Below, in pieces: positions 27,953 to 37,472 of a stretch of DNA of 64,000 bases. Numbering within the stretch: the first letter of the stretch is position 1; every line of letters begins with the position of its first letter. The position numbers and the translations under genes are program-made. Source of the DNA: Fibrobacter succinogenes (GTDB lineage Bacteria; Fibrobacterota; Fibrobacteria; Fibrobacterales; Fibrobacteraceae); assembly GCA_902762795.1 (NCBI GenBank), contig CACWPM010000016.1, positions 1 to 64,000 on the forward strand. The letters run 5' to 3'. The notes under the pieces were generated by a model, which worked only from the letters and a program-made list of their open reading frames with translations, ran no database searches and was not told the DNA's origin.

Positions 27953-28903
27953 TTATTTCGCTTCTTCAGTTTCCTCAAGTTCTTTCTTCAGCTTGAGTAC
28001 TTCCCTTTCGGAAAGCTTGGTAATTCTAGAAATTTTTTCTACAGAATCACCTTCGGCGAGCATGTTGCGAGCCATTTCTCGTTCGCGGTCTTGAACGCTC
28101 GAAGCCACCTTCGCGTTGATTTCGTCCGCGAATTCTTCGAAAATGCCATCTACCATGGCGTTATGATCATATTCCTTGTGGTACACTTTCTGGTACGCCT
28201 CGAATTCTTCTTTTGTCAAATTAGACATTTTGGAACTCTCCGTCAACTGCTCAAATTTGTGTTCGGAAAGCTCGGCTGGGAGTTCCTTGAGCCTGTTTAA
28301 GTAACGGAAGATGAAAAGCCATTTATTCATACTGGAGGAGCCTGGTTCAATGAACATTGGTACTTTTGAAAGTTCTACTGTGGTAAAATTGTATGCGTCC
28401 ACAAACTGCTCCCCTGAATCCAAGTCAATGACTGCGGCGCGATGAACGATACGCTCATCGTTGAATACAGAATGACGGGTAAAGGCTACGACGAAAGTTG
28501 GTTTCACATCAAAATTCCAGCCGATTCCTGGTTCAGCTTGGTTTGCCACCATTTCGCTAGCATAAAAGGCTAGTCGCTTGCGGAAATTCTTCAGCAGACG
28601 GATTTGAACTTCAATCTCAATTAGTTCGCCCGCGTCATCTTCGCAGTGGAGGTCGAAAATTGCGGTACGGGATTCCTTGCTCCCGCTCAAGTTGTGTGCC
28701 ACGTTGCGCGTTTTGACATTTGTGATAGGTCGCTTGAGTTGCGGCCTTAGCAAATCATTTAATAGATTGATTAGGTTCTGACAGCTGATAGGTTTGTCAG
28801 GGTCGAATGCTTTCTTGAATGCCAAATCCACCAGCAAATTTGCATATGGACTTTTTTCGCCCGGTTTTACAAAGCAATCCTTCAATGGTTTGCGTTTAGT
28901 CAT
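27953..28903 (-). CDS. Rpn/PD-(D/E)XK nuclease family (transposase_31-like) protein
   Basis: A 316-residue protein of the Rpn/PDDEXK_2 family. YANLLVDLAFKKAFDPDK is the usual N-terminus. The nuclease core is AIFDLHCEDDAGELIEIEVQI, with Asp and ExQ in place of ExK, as in many members. VVAFTRHSVF follows. The C-terminus is helical and ends in a small HTH-like part (MLAEGDSVEKISRITKLSER, then EVLKLKKELEE). Rpn proteins are DNA endonucleases that can promote RecA-independent recombination. GGAGG precedes the start. A diverged remnant of the same family lies 160 bases upstream. Confidence 0.85.
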   Translation of the reverse strand: MTKRKPLKDCFVKPGEKSPYANLLVDLAFKKAFDPDKPISCQNLINLLNDLLRPQLKRPITNVKTRNVAHNLSGSKESRTAIFDLHCEDDAGELIEIEVQIRLLKNFRKRLAFYASEMVANQAEPGIGWNFDVKPTFVVAFTRHSVFNDERIVHRAAVIDLDSGEQFVDAYNFTTVELSKVPMFIEPGSSSMNKWLFIFRYLNRLKELPAELSEHKFEQLTESSKMSNLTKEEFEAYQKVYHKEYDHNAMVDGIFEEFADEINAKVASSVQDREREMARNMLAEGDSVEKISRITKLSEREVLKLKKELEETEEAK

Positions 28904-29060: not shown

Positions 29061-29352
29061 CTATGTGAATGTCGTTGTTTTCTCAAGTTGAGTCTTTAAC
29101 TTGAGAATGGTGCTTTCAGGGAACTTTGTAACACGCGAAATCATTTCGACGGGGAGTCCTTTGGCAAGCATTGCTTTGGCGACTTCGTTTCGTTCGTCGT
29201 CCTTTCCTTGCAGATAAGCCCCTTGTTTTTCGTAAAGAAGATCTGTCATTACTTATACTCCGTAAAAAATATCAATAGGGTCAACGAAGTCTTGGCTCAT
29301 GGAAAAATGATCCCCTTTCCAAGTTATCGTTTTCTAAGATTGCGTTGGACAT
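29061..29352 (-). pseudogene. Remnant of a second Rpn-family gene
   Basis: A 62-codon frame (29249-29061) encodes MLAKGLPVEMISRVTKFPES then TILKLKTQLEK, clearly related to the C-terminus of the intact Rpn-family protein next door. Upstream on the same strand there is a short frame from 29352 with an AGGAGG site that stops after 23 codons. A second short frame from 29300 ends in a TAA just before the 62-codon frame. The nuclease core is missing. I read this as a decayed paralog. Confidence 0.6.
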
Positions 29353-29530
29353 AAAATCCTCCTCGTTGCAATCTTGATATACATTATTTCCTGCTAAAGC
29401 ACAAGTCAGGGTAGTTTTGGATATTAAAGCAATTTTAATTAGAGTGATTATTTTCGCAATATTGTATATTTCCCATTGACATAGCTCTGCACTTCGCGGT
29501 GCAGGGCGCGAGTTTAACGTAGAGTTAGCT
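29253..29530. other. Gap before the first structured element
   Basis: Besides the short frames noted in the remnant, this holds an AT-rich stretch and the hairpin CTGCAC-N6-GTGCAG (29487-29504). The sequence TTGACATAG at about 29476 also precedes the second element copy (34363) and may be promoter-related. No gene is seen. Confidence 0.35.
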
Positions 29531-29690
29531 CTTATTCTCGAAATCGAAAATCTGGTAAATTTTCAAAATTCAGCGAGAATAAGGCGAACACTCACGTCCA
29601 GCAATGGGCGTGGGTCGTTTGTGCTTATTGCTGAATAGGTTTACCAGAGCCTCGATTTCGGTAAGTGCATTCGACGCCACGCTTTTTTTA
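29531..29690 (+). ncRNA. Structured RNA-like element, copy 1 (upstream of mod-res)
   Basis: It shares blocks GGGCGTGGGTCGTTTG, ATAGGTTTACCAGAGCCTC, TGCATTCGAC and CCACGC plus a T tract with 34370-34549. Stems: CTTATTCTCG (29531-29540) with CGAGAATAAG (29574-29583). CGAAATCG (29539) with CGATTTCG (29653). CTGGTAAA (29552) with TTTACCAG (29640). ATTCAGC (29568) with GCTGAAT (29630). GCGTGGGTCG (29608) with CGAC-G-CCACGC (29672). TGTGCTTA (29620) with TAAGTGCA (29662). The 3' hairpin plus seven T residues looks like a terminator whose loop pairs with the upstream strand, a large H-type pseudoknot. It ends ~60 bases before the mod start. Confidence 0.65.
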
Positions 29691-29751
29691 TTTGAAGTTG
29701 TGACGCGAACAGCACTAAATAAGGGCATGTACCCTTAGCCGTGAGGTTCAC

Positions 29752-31506
29752 GTGGCAGAAACATTGGATGGTCTCAAGGTTCGCATCCGCGAATTGGAAA
29801 AAGAAGTCGAACGCTGGAAGTCCCAAGTCAAGAGCGTTCGTTATGGGCTCAACTGGATGGACGTTCCTGAAGCCTTTGACAAGGATTCCGAAGACAAAAT
29901 TCCAATTCTCGAAGAAGTCGCCGAAAAGGCCGTAGATGCGGAAGGTCCGTTGACAGGAAAACCTCCTCATGTAATTATCGAAGGCGACAACTACCACGCA
30001 CTCACTTGCTTGAATTACACTCACCGTGGCAAAATTGATGTCATCTACATTGATCCGCCGTATAACACGGGTTCGGATGGATTTACTTACAAGGACAAAC
30101 GTTTCTTGACAGAATTTCCCGATGGTCAAAAAGTTCCTAAGGAACATCCGCTCCGCCATAGCTATTGGCTTTCGTTTATGGAAAAGCGTTTGAAGCTGGC
30201 AAAGAATTTGCTGAGTGATAAGGGGGTGATTTTCATCAGCATTGATGATAACGAACAAGCGAATTTGAAATTATTGTGCGATAAAGTATTTGGAGAAGGA
30301 AATTTTGTTGCAAATTTAATTTGGCAAAAAAAATTTAGTCCACAGAATGATGCAAAATGGTTCTCGGATAATCATGACTTCATTATATGTGTTGCAAAGG
30401 ATAAAACGAATTGGCACCCGAATTTACTTGCTAGAGGAAAAGAGTCTCTTTCAAGATATTCAAATCCAGACAATGATCCAAGAGGTGTGTGGTCATCAAC
30501 GGATTTGGCTGTAAAAACATATACGAAGGAGTATGATTATCCTATAACAACGCCTTCGGGCAAAGTTGTTTCGCCAACAAATGGCCGTTGTTGGATGACT
30601 TCACAAGAACGAATGCAAAAGCTGATTGAAGATAATAGAATTTGGTTTGGGAAAAAAGGAAACAATATGCCTCGTTATAAAACCTTTTTATCCGAGGTTC
30701 AACAGGGTATAGTTCCTTTAACAATATGGTTGCATGAAGAAGTTGGACACAATCAAAGTGCTAAACAAGAATTGAAGAAAATTTTTTCAGACACTCATTT
30801 ACCTTTTGAAACACCCAAACCAACAACATTGTTAGAACGAATAATTCAAATTTCTACTAATCAAAACCAAAAACCTATCATTCTCGATTTCTTCGCTGGT
30901 TCTGGAACAACTCTACACGCAACACTCAATCTTAACAAAGAAGATGATGGTAATCGCCAATGTATTCTTGTTCAGCAGGCCGAAGGCGATAACAATATCT
31001 GTGAAAATGTTACCTACGAACGCAACCTTCGTGTAATGTACGGCTACACTAATGCGAAGGGCGAAAATGTCGATGGTTTAGGTGGTTCGCTTAAATATTA
31101 CAAGACTGGTTTCGTTGGCAAGCATCAGAGTAAAAACGCCAATGATGCGGACAAGGTGGAACTTGCCGAAAAAGCAGGTTGCCTTATTGCACTAGCTGAA
31201 AACACCTTGGAAACGGTCATTGTTCCTTCAACAGCAAAGGGGTTCTGGCAAATCTATTCCGATAATGCAGAGAAGAAAAAACGCTACACATGCATTTATC
31301 ATAATGGCGATTACGGCAAAGTTTCTGATTTTGTTGCAAAAATCGATGAATTGCGAGCAACGGATAAAAAATCGAAATTCACGGTTTATGTATTCAGCTG
31401 GAATTCTCCCGACTTCTTTGAAAACGAATTCGATGATTTAAAAAACATCGAAATCAAGGCGATTCCCAAACCGATTCTCGAAATCTACAAGGCTTTGAAC
31501 GGGTAA
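29752..31506 (+). CDS. mod: Type III restriction-modification DNA methyltransferase (Mod)
   Basis: A 584-residue N6-adenine methyltransferase of the beta class. The catalytic motif IDPPYNTGSDGF lies near residue 100 and the SAM motif LDFFAGSGTTLHATL near 380. The target-recognition part lies between them (~170-370), and TSQERMQKLIEDNRIWFGKKG is a typical type III block. It is followed, five bases on, by the restriction subunit. The start is a GTG at 29752, with GAGG seven bases upstream. The stretch encoding the recognition region (~30250-30880) is visibly more AT-rich than both ends, as if exchanged. Mod can act alone as a methylase; with Res it cleaves DNA. Confidence 0.95.
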   Translation: MAETLDGLKVRIRELEKEVERWKSQVKSVRYGLNWMDVPEAFDKDSEDKIPILEEVAEKAVDAEGPLTGKPPHVIIEGDNYHALTCLNYTHRGKIDVIYIDPPYNTGSDGFTYKDKRFLTEFPDGQKVPKEHPLRHSYWLSFMEKRLKLAKNLLSDKGVIFISIDDNEQANLKLLCDKVFGEGNFVANLIWQKKFSPQNDAKWFSDNHDFIICVAKDKTNWHPNLLARGKESLSRYSNPDNDPRGVWSSTDLAVKTYTKEYDYPITTPSGKVVSPTNGRCWMTSQERMQKLIEDNRIWFGKKGNNMPRYKTFLSEVQQGIVPLTIWLHEEVGHNQSAKQELKKIFSDTHLPFETPKPTTLLERIIQISTNQNQKPIILDFFAGSGTTLHATLNLNKEDDGNRQCILVQQAEGDNNICENVTYERNLRVMYGYTNAKGENVDGLGGSLKYYKTGFVGKHQSKNANDADKVELAEKAGCLIALAENTLETVIVPSTAKGFWQIYSDNAEKKKRYTCIYHNGDYGKVSDFVAKIDELRATDKKSKFTVYVFSWNSPDFFENEFDDLKNIEIKAIPKPILEIYKALNG

Positions 31507-31510
31507 AAAT

Positions 31511-34303
31511 ATGCAGATGCTTCCTTTCCAAGAAAATGCGGTCCTCGGCACGAACGGTCTCGTAGAAACGTTCAAGAAACTTTGGCAAACGGGCGGCCAT
31601 AATCTCGATATCACTTTCAAGTCTCCGACAGGTTCCGGCAAGACTTTCATGGTGTCAAATTTTGTTCGCGAATTGCAAAATGATCCTGCTATTAACGACG
31701 ATGTCGCGTTCGTTTGGATTACTTTCTCGGATGACCTTGCGATGCAAAGTCGCGACAAGTTTTATGATTACTTTTTCCCAAATATCGGGCGAAGCCTCTT
31801 GACCATCGCAGATTTTTCCGAAGGCGTTTTGCACAAAGACGATATTCTGTTCTTGAATTGGCAAAAGTTAGTGGCAAAAGATGCCAAAAAGCGTTTGCTG
31901 CGTCGTCCCGACGAAGTTGAGCTGCAAAAGGAGCAGGGATTCTACTTTGAAGATGTCGCGGAAAACACAAAGAAAGAAGGTCGCGAAATTGTAATGATTA
32001 TCGATGAAAGCCACAAGAATGTGACTGCATCGGCTTATCGTGATGTTATTACGCCACTTAATCCGCGAATCATTTTGAATGTCTCTGCCACGCCGGAAAA
32101 AATTCCCACCATCAGCGATGTGCAAAATCTGCGTGCAGGCTATGTTGAAGTCAAACGCTCCGATGTTGTTGCTGCAGGTCTTATCAAGGAACAGATTATT
32201 TCGCAAACAGAAGAAGATTTGAAAACCATTGAAGGTGAAGATCTTGACTTCGCCTTGCTGCGGCTCGCCAAGGAAAAACGGGAATCTTTGGCGGAACAAT
32301 GGACTCGCCTCGGTCAAAATATCAACCCGCTTGTTTTAATTCAGTTGCCTAATGATGATTCTAAACTCAAGGATCAAGGTGTTGAAACAAAGGAAGAACT
32401 CGTCACGAGATTTTTGACTGAAAATTGCGATGTTCCTACAAATAAAATTGCCAAATGGTTTGACAAAAAAACAGAACATCTTGAACATATTACGGATTCT
32501 GATAATCCTGTAGATTTTATGCTTTTCAAATATGCTGCAGGAACAGGGTGGGATTGCCCACGCGCACATGTTATTGTAATGTTCCGTGAAATTGAATCGC
32601 CAACATTCAAAACACAGACTCTCGGAAGAATTTTGCGCAACCCTGTTCCGAAAGTTGACTTGACAGCATTCCCTGAACTTCGTGAAGGTTTCCTTTACAC
32701 AAATTACCGTAAAAACGAAATTTCCGACATTCCCGATACTGTTGAAAACAAACCTAAAACAGAAGTGACAAATCTTGCTTCGCATCTTTTGGGCGGGTTT
32801 GCAACAAAAGAAACTACGCATAATGTTATCCAAGAACTGAAAACTTCTATGCTTGATGACTTGGTGGCAAACGGCTCGGACAAACCGATTTCAGATGTTG
32901 CTCCCAAAATTGAAGCTGCGTTAAAAGAAGCTGTTAAACAAGTTGCTCCAGAATTATCGACAAATCCGGGAATATTGTCCGATGATCATCCCGAAATGAA
33001 TCTTTTTGGCGAAACTGATTCTCCAGCATCAAAAATTCAAAAGACAGAACAAATTGTTGAAATGGCTACTCGAAATGTCAAGGCTATATTGACGGAACAT
33101 TTCGGAGAGAGCGTTGCAAATAAGACTACAGGAATTGTTGCCGAAGCAACCCGCGATTTTGCGGAAACGCTCGTTCAAAAACAGCAGTCTTCATTCATCG
33201 TTGATCCACTTTTGAAGAGCGATTTCATTAGCCGTGCAGACTATGGTGATATTGGTAAGGCAAGTAGTTTCCAGAGTTCATTTGTCAAGTCGATGAACAA
33301 CTATTTTGGAATTAACGAAAATGCTTATAACAATCCGTTTGCTCAAGAGGGCGTTCTTGAAAAATTTGGCATAGATATGACTCAAATGCTTTCAACCGAG
33401 GTCTTGGCGAACGCCACCTTTGCAGGAACCAACGATTTGGGCAAAAATGTTGAGCACGAAATGAGTGACAACGAAGTCGAAAAGAATTTCATGAATTCCT
33501 GCTATAACATTTTGGAAGAACAGACCGAACCCGATGCTAAATATGGCAACATAGCTCGTTCTTGGGGCCCGTTCAAGGAAGCTCTTCGTCAATGGTTTGA
33601 ACGTTATTCGATGACGAATATTGATAATGTCGGTCGCTACAAAATTTTCTTGAAAGACTTGTTCAAAAATTCTGCTAGCGTTTTCCGCAAAGCCATTACG
33701 CAAGCGCTCAAGGAATACAGACCCATTCGCGACGCCTTTGTTGCCAATCGTCGTAAGCAGGAAATGCAGGAAGCCTTGCCGTTCAAGGTCAAGACATCTT
33801 ATGCGTATTCGAGCGACTTTGTCGATTATAAGCCAAGTATGAAGAGCATGCTTCAGCCGTTCAAACTCAAGGCTGAATATCCAGGACGCGATAATGAAAT
33901 TGCTTTTATCGAGTTCCTTGAAAATCTACCGACAGTTGAATGGTGGTTTAAGCAGAATGATGACGGCAAGGACTTTTATGCACTCAAATATTTCAATACT
34001 ACTGAAAATCGCGAAAGACTTTTCTATCCTGACTGGATTGTGAAATTCGTGGACGGTCGCATCGGTATTTTTGATACTAAGAGCGGATTTACAGCCGCCA
34101 ATCCCGAAGGCCGTGCAGAGGCCCTTTCGAAAAAATTGCGTGATTTGAATGAAGAGGCGGTCAAACGCGATGGTCGCGAAAAATTTGTCGGTGGTTTGTG
34201 CGTTCGTGAAAATAAACTGTGGTATTGCAACAGTGCCGAAAAATACCGCTACAAGGACGAAAAAGGCAACCTTGCTGAAGGTTGGATATTAATGCAGGGG
34301 TAA
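31511..34303 (+). CDS. res: Type III restriction enzyme, Res subunit
   Basis: A 930-residue protein. A superfamily 2 helicase comes first: Walker A SPTGSGKTFMVS near residue 38, DESH box IIDESHKNVTAS near 165, motif III NVSATPEK and motif VI QTLGRILRNP. A PD-(D/E)XK nuclease follows at the C-terminus, with DWIVKFVDGRIGIFDTKSGF near 845-860 supplying Asp and the DxK-type pair. Length is normal for the family. It uses ATP to communicate along DNA and cuts 25-27 bp from the site when two Mod-bound sites are in the right orientation (family knowledge). It is co-transcribed with mod. Confidence 0.93.
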   Translation: MQMLPFQENAVLGTNGLVETFKKLWQTGGHNLDITFKSPTGSGKTFMVSNFVRELQNDPAINDDVAFVWITFSDDLAMQSRDKFYDYFFPNIGRSLLTIADFSEGVLHKDDILFLNWQKLVAKDAKKRLLRRPDEVELQKEQGFYFEDVAENTKKEGREIVMIIDESHKNVTASAYRDVITPLNPRIILNVSATPEKIPTISDVQNLRAGYVEVKRSDVVAAGLIKEQIISQTEEDLKTIEGEDLDFALLRLAKEKRESLAEQWTRLGQNINPLVLIQLPNDDSKLKDQGVETKEELVTRFLTENCDVPTNKIAKWFDKKTEHLEHITDSDNPVDFMLFKYAAGTGWDCPRAHVIVMFREIESPTFKTQTLGRILRNPVPKVDLTAFPELREGFLYTNYRKNEISDIPDTVENKPKTEVTNLASHLLGGFATKETTHNVIQELKTSMLDDLVANGSDKPISDVAPKIEAALKEAVKQVAPELSTNPGILSDDHPEMNLFGETDSPASKIQKTEQIVEMATRNVKAILTEHFGESVANKTTGIVAEATRDFAETLVQKQQSSFIVDPLLKSDFISRADYGDIGKASSFQSSFVKSMNNYFGINENAYNNPFAQEGVLEKFGIDMTQMLSTEVLANATFAGTNDLGKNVEHEMSDNEVEKNFMNSCYNILEEQTEPDAKYGNIARSWGPFKEALRQWFERYSMTNIDNVGRYKIFLKDLFKNSASVFRKAITQALKEYRPIRDAFVANRRKQEMQEALPFKVKTSYAYSSDFVDYKPSMKSMLQPFKLKAEYPGRDNEIAFIEFLENLPTVEWWFKQNDDGKDFYALKYFNTTENRERLFYPDWIVKFVDGRIGIFDTKSGFTAANPEGRAEALSKKLRDLNEEAVKRDGREKFVGGLCVRENKLWYCNSAEKYRYKDEKGNLAEGWILMQG

Positions 34304-34369
34304 TGGCTATACAAATGCTGAAATAACTTAAGGAGACTTTTCAACACTTTAGATAATTGTATTTGACAT

Positions 34370-34549
34370 AGACTGAAAAGATTTCTGATTCCACTACTGA
34401 AAATCTGGTCGTTTGCTTTAGGCGAATCAAGAATATCCACAATGAAAAAGAATCTTCGCTCAAATTGGGCGTGGGTCGTTTGCACATATTGTGGATAGGT
34501 TTACCAGAGCCTCAGTAGTGTATGTGCATTCGACACCACGCTTTTTTTT
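34370..34549 (+). ncRNA. Structured RNA-like element, copy 2 (after res, before the kptA cassette)
   Basis: Same architecture as 29531-29690 with different stem sequences. CACTACTG (34392) pairs with CAGTAGTG (34513). CTGGT (34405) pairs with ACCAG (34503). ATCCACAAT (34435) pairs with ATTGTGGAT (34488). GCGTGGGTCG (34469) pairs with CGAC-A-CCACGC (34531). TGCACATA (34481) pairs with TATGTGCA (34521), and eight T residues follow. An outer stem near 34376-34384 with 34449-34457 is weaker. Where copy 1 differs, both strands of the stem differ, which supports a conserved fold. Confidence 0.65.
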
Positions 34550-34741: not shown

Positions 34742-35212
34742 ATGACAATAATAAATTCGACACATAAACCCGACCAGGAGCAGGCCTTGCAAGACCTGTG
34801 GTTGAAGGAATGTGCCGAATTTGAACAACTAAAAAATATTCAAGCGGGTTCTCTAAGCGATTCTTTTGCCCTTTGTTTTAAACTGAGAAAGTGGAATTCG
34901 GAACGTTTTATGAAAGCGACGGGGCTCGGAGATGCTTTTTTCTCTAGAATCGGCACGGGGAAATATGATGATAAAATGCGTCCATCCTTAGCTAGTGTAG
35001 TTGCAATATGTATTGGATTGCATATACCTTTTAAATTTTCCAATATTCTTATCATGCGTTGCGGTCATTCTCTGACTGATTCAAAACAGGATTGCTGCTA
35101 TGCATTTATTCTTTCTCATTACGAAATGTTTAAAACGGTGGAAGACGCCAATCAATTTCTTGTAGATAAAGGCTTTTCTTCTATAATCAATAAGGATAAC
35201 CAAGAAAAATAA
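34742..35212 (+). CDS. HTH (XRE-like) domain protein
   Basis: A 156-residue protein. The segment KLRKWNSERFMKATGLGDAF then FSRIGTG and MRPSLASVVAICIGLHIPFK (~45-105) has the spacing of an XRE-type helix-turn-helix. The N- and C-terminal parts match nothing I know. It heads a four-gene plus-strand set (DUF4417, unknown, kptA), with a 165-base gap before the DUF4417 start. It may be the cassette regulator. The DNA is AT-rich with weak codon resemblance to the core genes, as expected of an accessory gene. Confidence 0.6.
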   Translation: MTIINSTHKPDQEQALQDLWLKECAEFEQLKNIQAGSLSDSFALCFKLRKWNSERFMKATGLGDAFFSRIGTGKYDDKMRPSLASVVAICIGLHIPFKFSNILIMRCGHSLTDSKQDCCYAFILSHYEMFKTVEDANQFLVDKGFSSIINKDNQEK

Positions 35213-35377
35213 AAATTTCACAACGTGAAAGAAGAATGTTTCGAATTTGCCCTAAAAACGACATTTTCTTTATTCGTAATCAATAAAAAAGGCAAAATTG
35301 GCAAAATTTCCTTTCACGCTCTGATTGGCAAACTCATCGCCTCATCGGGTATATTCCTTCTCAAAAAGGAGACAGAT

Positions 35378-36017
35378 ATGACCAAAAACAATAAGTTCAA
35401 AGCAACTATCGATGACGGGTTTCAGCCGGAACTGGTGAAAAAAGCTCGTTTTGAAGGCATTTTCGAGATCCCTGTTATTGACAAACTCAAAAGAATCTTT
35501 ATCCCTAACGGAATTACACCATTTAGCCGCAGAAACGAGGCTCCAACGGATAGCGAGGCTATCGGATTCTTCGAAATGGACCCGATGTTTGCCGATGTCC
35601 TGAGAAACCCGCAAGCCTATGTTGAAGAACTCAAAAAGTTTCCTGCGGTTATTTCGCCGGATTGTTCGCTTTACAGGGATGCTCCCTTGACCGTGCAAAT
35701 TGCGAATGTTTACAAGAAGAACGCCGTAACTCACTATTGGCAAAGCATGGGCGTGGGTATGATTCCTCTTGTTCGCTGGGGCAGCCGCGACACTTAACAG
35801 TATTATCGTCATCAGCACCTACGGATGCATAAAGACAAAAGAAGACAAATATCATTTTGAAGCCGGACTTGATGCATGCCTACGAGCGCTCACGCCCAAG
35901 ATTGTTCTTGTCCATGGAGCCATGCCAGAAAAAGTCTTTGGACCGTATTTGAAATATGCAGAGTTCCACAACTATCTCGACTGGATTACGCGCAAGAAAG
36001 GAGGCAGACATGGGTAG
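35378..36017 (+). pseudogene. DUF4417 family gene, frameshifted
   Basis: The start at 35378 follows AAAGGAGA. The first frame encodes IPNGITPFSRRNEAP, FFEMDPMFADVLRNPQAY and YWQSMGVGMIPLVRWG, then stops at 35797. The expected continuation (SIIVISTYGCIKTKEDKYHF, LTPKIVLVHGAMPEKVFG, FHNYLDWI) lies in the next frame and ends at 36017. Adding one base near 35785-35795 would restore a typical ~210-residue DUF4417 protein, a family of unknown function common in mobile DNA of Firmicutes and others. The lesion may be real or a sequencing error. The second part overlaps the next gene's start by eight bases. Confidence 0.7.
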
Positions 36018-36896: not shown

Positions 36897-37472
36897 ATGA
36901 ACTTAGTTGACCTTTCCAAAGAAATTTCCTATGCACTTCGGCACGCTCCGTGGGAATACGAGTTGGAACTTGACGAGAAGGGATTTGTCCCGATTGCACA
37001 ACTACTGCATGCATTGAACGAGTCAAACGGCTACGATCGGGAAATCGTTCAAGCGGATTTGGAGCAGATTATCGCAACTTCCGAAAAGAAACGCCACGAA
37101 ATTGTTGGGGACAAAATTCGGGCACTTTATGGTCACTCTGTCCCTCAAATTATAAAGAAGGAACCAGGGATTCCCCCTGCCGTTCTATACCACGGAACAA
37201 CGCACAAGGCTTTATCGCAGATTCTTCATGATGGCTTAAAGCCGATGCAACGACAATATGTTCATCTTTCTGCTGATGTTGACACTGCTACTCGTGTTGG
37301 TAAACGCCGCGATGGTAATCCGGTCATCTTGAAAATAGATACCGAAGCCGCACAAAAAGCGGGCATCCAGTTTTTCATCGGCAATGACAAGGTTTGGCTT
37401 TGCAGAGAAATGCCGAAAGATTGTCTTTCGATTTTTACTCCAAGAACATCGCCATGTAATACGGCAGGGTAA
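36897..37472 (+). CDS. kptA: RNA 2'-phosphotransferase (Tpt1/KptA family)
   Basis: A 191-residue protein. The N-terminal winged domain has LSKEISYALRHAPWEYELEL and KGFVPIAQLL. The NAD+-binding ART-like half has VLYHGTTHKALSQILHDGLK, YVHLSADVDTATRVGKRR and VWLCREMPKDCL. Tpt1 removes an internal RNA 2'-phosphate by transfer to NAD+, releasing ADP-ribose 1'',2''-cyclic phosphate. In bacteria the natural RNA is unknown, and a role in RNA repair or defence has been proposed. It starts five bases after the unknown protein. Its 3' end overlaps the convergent ATPase gene by 38 bases. Confidence 0.9.
   Translation: MNLVDLSKEISYALRHAPWEYELELDEKGFVPIAQLLHALNESNGYDREIVQADLEQIIATSEKKRHEIVGDKIRALYGHSVPQIIKKEPGIPPAVLYHGTTHKALSQILHDGLKPMQRQYVHLSADVDTATRVGKRRDGNPVILKIDTEAAQKAGIQFFIGNDKVWLCREMPKDCLSIFTPRTSPCNTAG

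Follow-up and report, generated by a model that had tools for sequence, protein, structure and literature searches.

Two diverged copies of an RNA-like element lie on the forward strand of a 64,000-nucleotide (nt) stretch of Fibrobacter succinogenes DNA, hereafter the window, at positions 29531-29689 (copy 1) and 34370-34549 (copy 2). Each copy stands ahead of a set of genes read in the same direction. Copy 1 is followed by a gene for a type III DNA methyltransferase (mod, 29752-31506; PF01555, E 2.8e-39; PADLOC MTase_III), whose start codon is 62 nt 3' of the T tract that ends the copy, and by a gene for a Res-like helicase/endonuclease (31511-34303; PF04851, E 7.9e-16). Behind copy 2 are a gene for a 156-amino-acid (aa) protein (34742-35212), a DUF4417 gene (35225-35797; PF14386, E 4.3e-29, profile positions 2-115 of 183) and a gene for a KptA/Tpt1 RNA 2'-phosphotransferase (36897-37472; PF01885, E 1.1e-40). 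An initial sequence-only reading of the window had placed mod and res behind one copy and a helix-turn-helix (HTH), DUF4417 and KptA set behind the other. The mod, res, DUF4417 and KptA assignments are backed by Pfam matches, whereas the 156-aa protein, HTH-like according to that reading, has none.

Measured from P1 to its T tract, the element is about 150-280 nt long. Its parts follow one another, from 5' to 3', in the order upstream motif and hairpin, P1a, P2a, hairpin P3 (with loop L3), P4a, P1b, P5 hairpin, P7a, P4b, hairpin P8 (with loop L8), P2b, P7b, P6b and T tract. P5 is a local hairpin of variable length, and its 3' arm doubles as the 5' arm of P6. Loop I, which is closed by P1 and contains P2a, the P3 hairpin and P4a, is complementary in P2, P4 and L3:L8 to loop II, which contains P4b, the P8 hairpin and P2b and is closed by the terminator stem P6/P7. 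We infer that these helices may be present together, in two four-way junctions that have P2 and P4 in common.

In copy 1, loop I is closed by P1 (29531-29539 with 29575-29583), which is supported by pairing and covariation. P2 (29540-29547 with 29652-29659) is supported by covariation and a partner-swap test, and P4 (29568-29574 with 29630-29636) by the latter. The P3 hairpin (29548-29562) presents L3 (29552-29558, CTGGTAA), which pairs with L8 (29640-29647) of the P8 hairpin (AGG..CCT, 29637-29652). The antiterminator-type hairpin P5 (29593-29599 with 29606-29612) is exclusive with P6 (29608-29617 with 29672-29682), which together with P7 (29620-29627 with 29662-29669) forms the terminator, ending in the T tract at 29683-29689. 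Further upstream, a conserved TTGACATAGC motif and a 5' hairpin taken from the predicted fold (29476-29507) mark the probable start of the leader, and transcription may begin there. Copy 2, counted with its TTGACATAG motif (34363-34549), scores 77.7 bits with the covariance model R1, in whose training alignment it was itself included. It contains P2 (34392-34400/34512-34520), P4 (34435-34443/34488-34496), P7 (34481-34488/34521-34528), P6 (34469-34478/34531-34541) and a T tract (34542-34549). This copy is an atypical member, with an insertion 3' of the CTGGT loop, a loop-loop match of only 5 nt (CTGGT/ACCAG) and a predicted 5' stem that precedes P4a instead of following it.

All pairings that the sequence-only reading had listed are present in the two copies, and pairing is kept despite sequence change. 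The arms of P7 are TGTGCTTA/TAAGTGCA in copy 1 and TGCACATA/TATGTGCA in copy 2, those of P2 are GAAATCGA/TCGATTTC and CACTACTGA/TCAGTAGTG, and those of P4 are ATTCAGC/GCTGAAT and ATCCACAAT/ATTGTGGAT, respectively. Also as described, both copies have a terminal GC stem (GCGTGGGTCG .. CGAC-N-CCACGC) followed by 7-8 T, and the 32-34 nt loop of this stem complements the upstream strand. The 17-mer AGGTTTACCAGAGCCTC, common to both copies, gave two matches in the window when up to three mismatches were allowed, both of them exact, a number not reached in any of 100 shuffles; GGGCGTGGGTCGTTTG by itself stands out less, with at least two matches in 11 of 100 shuffles.

A scan of species genomes with the seed TAGGTTTACCAGAGCCTC returned 38 stretches. 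One of these, L012, was judged by eye to be a chance match inside a long open reading frame (ORF). The remaining 37 stretches hold 38 copies, all of which carry, 75-190 nt upstream, the complementary block A[ATG]TCTGG[AT], which formed no part of the seed search. By their labels, the carriers were Fibrobacter and Bacteroidota, except for one metagenome-assembled genome labelled as an archaeon. In the genome of the window, model R1, built from 22 sequences, matched 11 times at E<=1, at 10 distinct sites. At E<=0.01 it matched in 86 of 111 Fibrobacteraceae genomes, with up to 18 matches per genome among the matches listed, a count that may include a weaker reverse-strand match of the same site. 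With a later model, R2, used for wider genome scans under stricter filters that lose weak matches, elements were found in 94 of 167 Fibrobacterota genomes at E<=1e-4 (79 of 80 in the window's genus, its own genome included), in 44 of 60 genomes in the genus of a Bacteroides acidifaciens genome, in 33 of 296 Bacteroidota genomes and, at E<=1e-4, in one of the 77 genomes scanned from the phylum to which a Nitrospinia genome belongs. Beyond the two copies first noticed, the covariance model and genome scans thus revealed many further homologs with covarying stems, in Fibrobacter and beyond.

The single Nitrospinia-labelled match (L266, G537:C540:3766-3897), in the same genome as L012, is a convincing element with helices visible by eye, and is attributed to transfer or to a contaminating contig. 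The other 76 genomes of that phylum had no match at E<=1e-4, and false matches are therefore rare at this threshold. Some contigs carry two elements, e.g., L019, at 3953 and 4310 (357 base pairs (bp) apart), and two neighbouring stretches of another contig (L009 and L024) have one element each. A phage origin was rejected, as BLASTN of copy 1 against phage records gave no match; likewise, 30 viral contigs with the 16-base seed were dismissed as chance, none having a model match at E<=0.1. Plasmid searches yielded, for a Bacteroides member, one 70.7% match on a 192-kb "plasmid" record with housekeeping-type genes and, for a second query, one partial match.

The sequence-only reading, which knew of no RNA class with this layout, was upheld in that no Rfam 15 family reached its gathering cut-off over the element in the window and 16 loci. 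At E<=5, copy 1 matched only a microRNA model, on the opposite strand, and five Bacteroidota loci had no match at E<=1. In the accessible text of the literature searched (including PMC8040213, PMC11697453 and PMC7366714; supplements and subscription journals lay outside the search), no published description of the element was found.

The helices were then evaluated for covariation. In 22 aligned relatives, P2 and P3 together are 97.1% paired, with 70 double-changed cells (69 in P2) vs 23.6 in shuffles. In 97 distinct rows, of which three are reverse-strand matches and whose relatedness inflates the shuffle test, these two helices are 98.4% paired (P3, 98.2%), with 350 double-changed cells (336 in P2) vs 99.8 in shuffles and 45-83 in slid controls. 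In the same rows, L3:L8 is 95.3% paired, with 76 double-changed cells vs 19.8 in shuffles, and its nine further pair types are not above shuffles (9.0). P1 is 82.3% paired (69 vs 27.5) and P5 95.8% (43 vs 9.4), and P8, with 3 bp and five double-changed cells, is weakly supported.

As a second control, partners were swapped between elements in 102 rows of a Fibrobacteraceae set (A4, including 6 Bacteroidales loci) and 61 rows of a Bacteroidota set (A5, in which the Nitrospinia locus is included and one locus, L019/L198, is represented twice). For the swap and fold-energy tests, the two sets had been freed of 3 of 105 and 21 of 82 rows, respectively, that came from the reverse strand. The own partner was in the best 5% of swaps for P2 in 99/102 and 61/61 rows and for P4 in 93/102 and 55/61 (88/97 in an earlier set). 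For P1 (24/102 and 29/61; z -10.1 and -11.9), P7 (37/102 and 24/61; z -12.9 in both sets) and L3:L8 (32/102 and 19/61), swaps discriminate less because these helices are more conserved in sequence. Mean energies of all five are below those of the swaps (z -10 to -41). Each copy's P2 and P4 are highly self-specific; this is less true of L3:L8 because one loop sequence is common, L3 being CTGGTAA in 38/102 and 37/61 rows. Other L3 sequences, such as CCGCTAA, CGGCAAA, CTACCAC, CCGCCAA and more, each occur with a matching L8. The covariation is above that of shuffles, slid controls and swapped partners, and pairing is kept through extensive compensatory change.

Signals at the two ends of the element are also recurrent. 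A TTGACAT-like motif is located at most 110 nt upstream in 82 of 138 Fibrobacteraceae elements vs 1 in a control window further upstream, such windows being shorter or empty for loci with short flanks. Of 177 elements, 173 are followed by a recognisable T tract, and in 172 at least five of the first six bases are T; the four elements without a recognised T run, all from Bacteroidota, were dropped from the T-tract analysis.

The P6a strand, GGGCGTGGGTCG, has two exclusive partners, either P5a upstream (local hairpin) or P6b downstream, followed by the T tract. Both P5 (z -8.9/-7.6) and P6 (z -6.9/-8.3) beat swaps in the two sets, and the terminator and antiterminator pairings of one strand are thus both conserved across relatives, as is looked for in attenuator leaders. 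These values come from re-run swap windows, whose P1 and P7 rows (z -0.3 to -2.5) were unused because the P4 duplex ran into P1b and P7a and misplaced both. The element had initially been called pseudoknotted. Its helices do cross, but the pairing is partly mutually exclusive (P5 vs P6), and therefore the term switch fits better than one fixed fold. With nested folding, the minimum of copy 1 is an antiterminated rod (-64.9 kcal/mol), and the terminator fragment 29606-29689 alone has -37.9. The antiterminated form is more stable in 91 of 94 elements, by a mean of 10.8 kcal/mol over two separate hairpins, a figure that counts no pseudoknot helices in the terminated form. P2 (about -9.3 kcal/mol) and P4 (about -7.6 kcal/mol) could further stabilise the terminated form if that form is pseudoknotted, and therefore the two forms may be close.

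The genes behind the elements were analyzed at 138 Fibrobacteraceae loci among the matches listed, some near contig ends and duplicates having been left out. The next gene is on the same strand at 121 loci, on the opposite strand at 10 and not called at 7 (121 of 131 called), whereas the strands of upstream genes are split 66:66. Measured from where the model match ends, about 4 nt past P2, the next gene lies at a median distance of 91 nt. In five of the ten opposite-strand cases (L051, L057, L063, L075 and L079), a long frame on the forward strand begins where expected, and the opposite frame is therefore probably antisense. At 53 Bacteroidota-side loci, one of which (L181) is Fibrobacter-like, 47 of the 48 called next genes share the strand of the element; upstream genes there also lean to the same strand (37:13), and the strand contrast is therefore weaker.

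The 121 same-strand next genes in Fibrobacteraceae form 39 BLAST clusters, and the commonest among them is a DNA methyltransferase of a restriction system (51 of 121 by cluster representative: clusters of 22, 14, 7 and 6, one C5 type and one EcoRI type). Ten more encode restriction or defence helicases or similar proteins (Mrr/ResIII 1, ResIII 2, HsdR-like 2, DrmD-like 2, UvrD/GajB-like 3), giving 61 of 121 by cluster representative; others encode lipoproteins, Fib_succ_major proteins and DUF4417 proteins. A direct domain scan of 117 of the 121 (L169, L178, L179 and L180 left out) found N6_Mtase in 26, N6_N4_Mtase in 13, MmeI_Mtase in 21 (overlapping), and one each of the C5 and EcoRI types. 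The top PADLOC families downstream are mad2 (31/117) and MTase_I (27/117), vs at most 4/132 for any family upstream, where the protein set is smaller (33,061 vs 51,440 residues). A cluster of 12 behind Fibrobacteraceae elements, typified by an 810-aa protein (L001, 711-3140) with no Pfam or NCBIfam match and a weak PADLOC methyltransferase match, is of no clear family and is a candidate new restriction-type enzyme.

In the window's genome, 8 of the 10 distinct sites, one of them weak (E 0.72), precede a DNA methyltransferase gene, as against about 0.014 expected by a rough estimate. This genome has 14 methyltransferase loci of three Pfam families (a split one, C70, counted once); an element stands directly in front of seven, and the weak match is in front of the eighth (C55). 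On the Bacteroidota side, about 25 of 48 next genes look secreted or lipoprotein-like when judged by eye, without a signal-peptide program. Of ten that were scanned, four encode BspA-like repeats, a C10 peptidase or a carboxypeptidase-regulatory-like domain and one is dynamin-like, and none has a restriction domain. Thus, the suggestion that the element might always flank defence-type genes holds in part, for about half of the loci in Fibrobacteraceae and for 8 of 10 sites in the window's genome, with no restriction domain in the ten genes scanned in Bacteroidota. A defence-only role was rejected as a general rule, since restriction genes account for only about half of the next genes in Fibrobacteraceae and for a minority of those inspected in Bacteroidota.

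Several features of the window touch these neighbours. The DUF4417 gene is apparently split over two frames, a 190-aa ORF and then an 82-aa ORF (35769-36017), and a close relative (L010) has a 229-aa ORF at the matching position. Elements are likewise followed by DUF4417-type genes at L080 and at L069, which belongs to the same cluster. Upstream of copy 1 is a PDDEXK_2 transposase-type gene (27953-28903), and the region between them (29100-29400) may, by eye, hold remnants of a second one. Shortly 3' of the T tract, the start codon is often part of a small hairpin whose loop contains AAGGAG or a GAGG-like sequence (CATAAGGGC-TAAAGGA-GCCCTTATG), as seen by eye in the window (29719-29756), L001, L008, L066 and others, which suggests a second, translational layer.

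We consider it most likely, with a probability of roughly 0.6, that the element is a 5' leader that acts in cis as a transcription attenuator of the next gene, because one strand can pair with either the P5 arm or the terminator arm P6. In the proposed mechanism, the local hairpin P5 would form first, and loop I would then capture loop II while the latter is being transcribed. The outcome of this capture would decide whether P7/P6 displaces P5; if it does, transcription would stop before the gene, and otherwise the gene would be read. The choice would be biased by some signal (protein, metabolite, RNA or polymerase speed), and fast change of P2 and P4 would prevent pairing among the many copies of one cell. 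A cis attenuator with such private pairing codes explains the position, orientation, T tract, exclusive helices and divergence of the copies. It resembles intrinsic-terminator attenuators and riboswitch platforms in being a 5' leader with exclusive antiterminator and terminator hairpins, a T tract and a gene directly behind. It differs from them in that its 32-34 nt terminator loop pairs in three segments with an upstream hairpin loop, and in having a second loop-loop helix inside and many diversified copies per genome.

Certain observations weigh against attenuation. A promoter and T tract are likewise expected of a free-standing small RNA, the downstream genes have no obvious pathway in common, and the upstream genes in Bacteroidota also lean to the same strand (37 of 50). 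In addition, a full four-strand exchange would require P1a to pair alternatively with P7b, which is unsupported (z -0.5 and -2.1), and P1b:P7a is not cleanly separable from P4; the full exchange was rejected because P1a:P7b fails the swap test. A strand 3' of the T tract that complements P6b, designated P9, gives a modest signal (best 5% of swaps in 13/107 and 5/35, means shifted by about 2 kcal/mol) and is a possible further competitor in read-through RNA.

A more far-reaching version of cis attenuation is tentative, and we regard it as possible rather than probable. In this version, the elements would form a class of self-specific RNA switches across phyla, in which the upstream hairpin loop is a complement copy of the terminator-hairpin loop and the two hairpins of one transcript lock into each other. 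With several to many copies per cell, each would acquire a private pairing code and control its own accessory gene alone, restriction-modification being the main client in Fibrobacter. The locked fold would consist of P2, P4 and the kissing helix, i.e., two four-way junctions sharing two helices in a natural double-crossover-like arrangement, and a leader that has been terminated might in addition exert feedback on transcripts still being made from the same locus.

Among other readings, the one that fares best, though we find it rather unlikely, is that the elements are multicopy free small RNAs (sRNAs) of about 160-210 nt with their own promoter and terminator, acting in trans by base pairing or protein binding, and that the gene behind is a mere neighbour. 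An upstream motif and T tract of its own, many copies per genome and the weaker strand contrast in Bacteroidota are consistent with this idea, but in Fibrobacteraceae the next gene is constrained in strand and distance and the upstream gene is not, and methyltransferase families lead downstream with no comparable PADLOC family upstream. Moreover, P2 and P4 differ between most copies, and a shared seed is therefore hard to see. Multicopy sRNA families do exist in Bacteroides: the available text on FopS of Bacteroides thetaiotaomicron, a multicopy paralogous RNA, describes RNAs of about 65-70 nt that act in trans on susC-like mRNAs through a common seed, R1' (PMC11697453). By comparison, the present elements are longer and stand ahead of the next gene, and their stems vary between copies; the distinction from FopS as described there was made by length, not by seed sequence.

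Somewhat less probable still is a metabolite riboswitch class, whose conserved pocket would bind a small molecule and tip P5/P6. The terminator/antiterminator layout, the complex junction and the CTGGTAA loop common in both sets would suit such a class, and SAM-II and other Rfam riboswitches are likewise structured leaders. SAM is the methyl donor of methyltransferases. However, no Rfam model matches any element tested, and the loop-loop sequence is also replaced by other paired sequences in many copies. The genes behind suggest no common metabolite, since they include type I, II, III and IIG methyltransferases, helicases, DUF4417, lipoproteins, BspA-like proteins and C10 peptidases; with 39 BLAST clusters of varied domains and varied Bacteroidota proteins, no shared pathway, such as riboswitch-regulated genes have, was found.

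It is very improbable that the elements are imperfect palindromes at the DNA level (MITE- or REP-like repeats, or recombination sites) that spread beside accessory genes: the reverse strand of many elements does match the model weakly (3/105 and 21/82 matches) because the whole element is a near-inverted repeat, and a transposase-type gene lies upstream of copy 1, but forward scores exceed reverse ones (e.g., 73.6 vs 23.7 bits in L186), the stems change yet keep a pairing that a copied DNA repeat would not need, and the T tract and next same-strand gene are on the same side in nearly all loci.

Another short structured RNA tied to defence-type genes is abiF RNA (RF03085), whose name links it to an abortive-infection gene. 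It differs in having a 37-position model, with no match to the elements. An abiF RNA (58.5 bits) was observed at 5569-5605 of L004, a Prevotella locus with an element some 2 kb away.

Overall, the element represents an RNA class without an Rfam 15 entry that stands ahead of restriction and surface-protein genes in bacteria of the rumen and gut. Nearly all searched genomes of the genus to which the window belongs have it, as do many Bacteroidales from the gut, often with several copies each. Outside of C-protein systems, to our knowledge, control of the timing and dosage of restriction-modification is an open question, and through this class, systems of types I, II, IIG and III would come under one common layer of regulation. 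It also offers a test case of shape conservation in an intricate RNA fold most of whose stems change, the loop-loop helix included.

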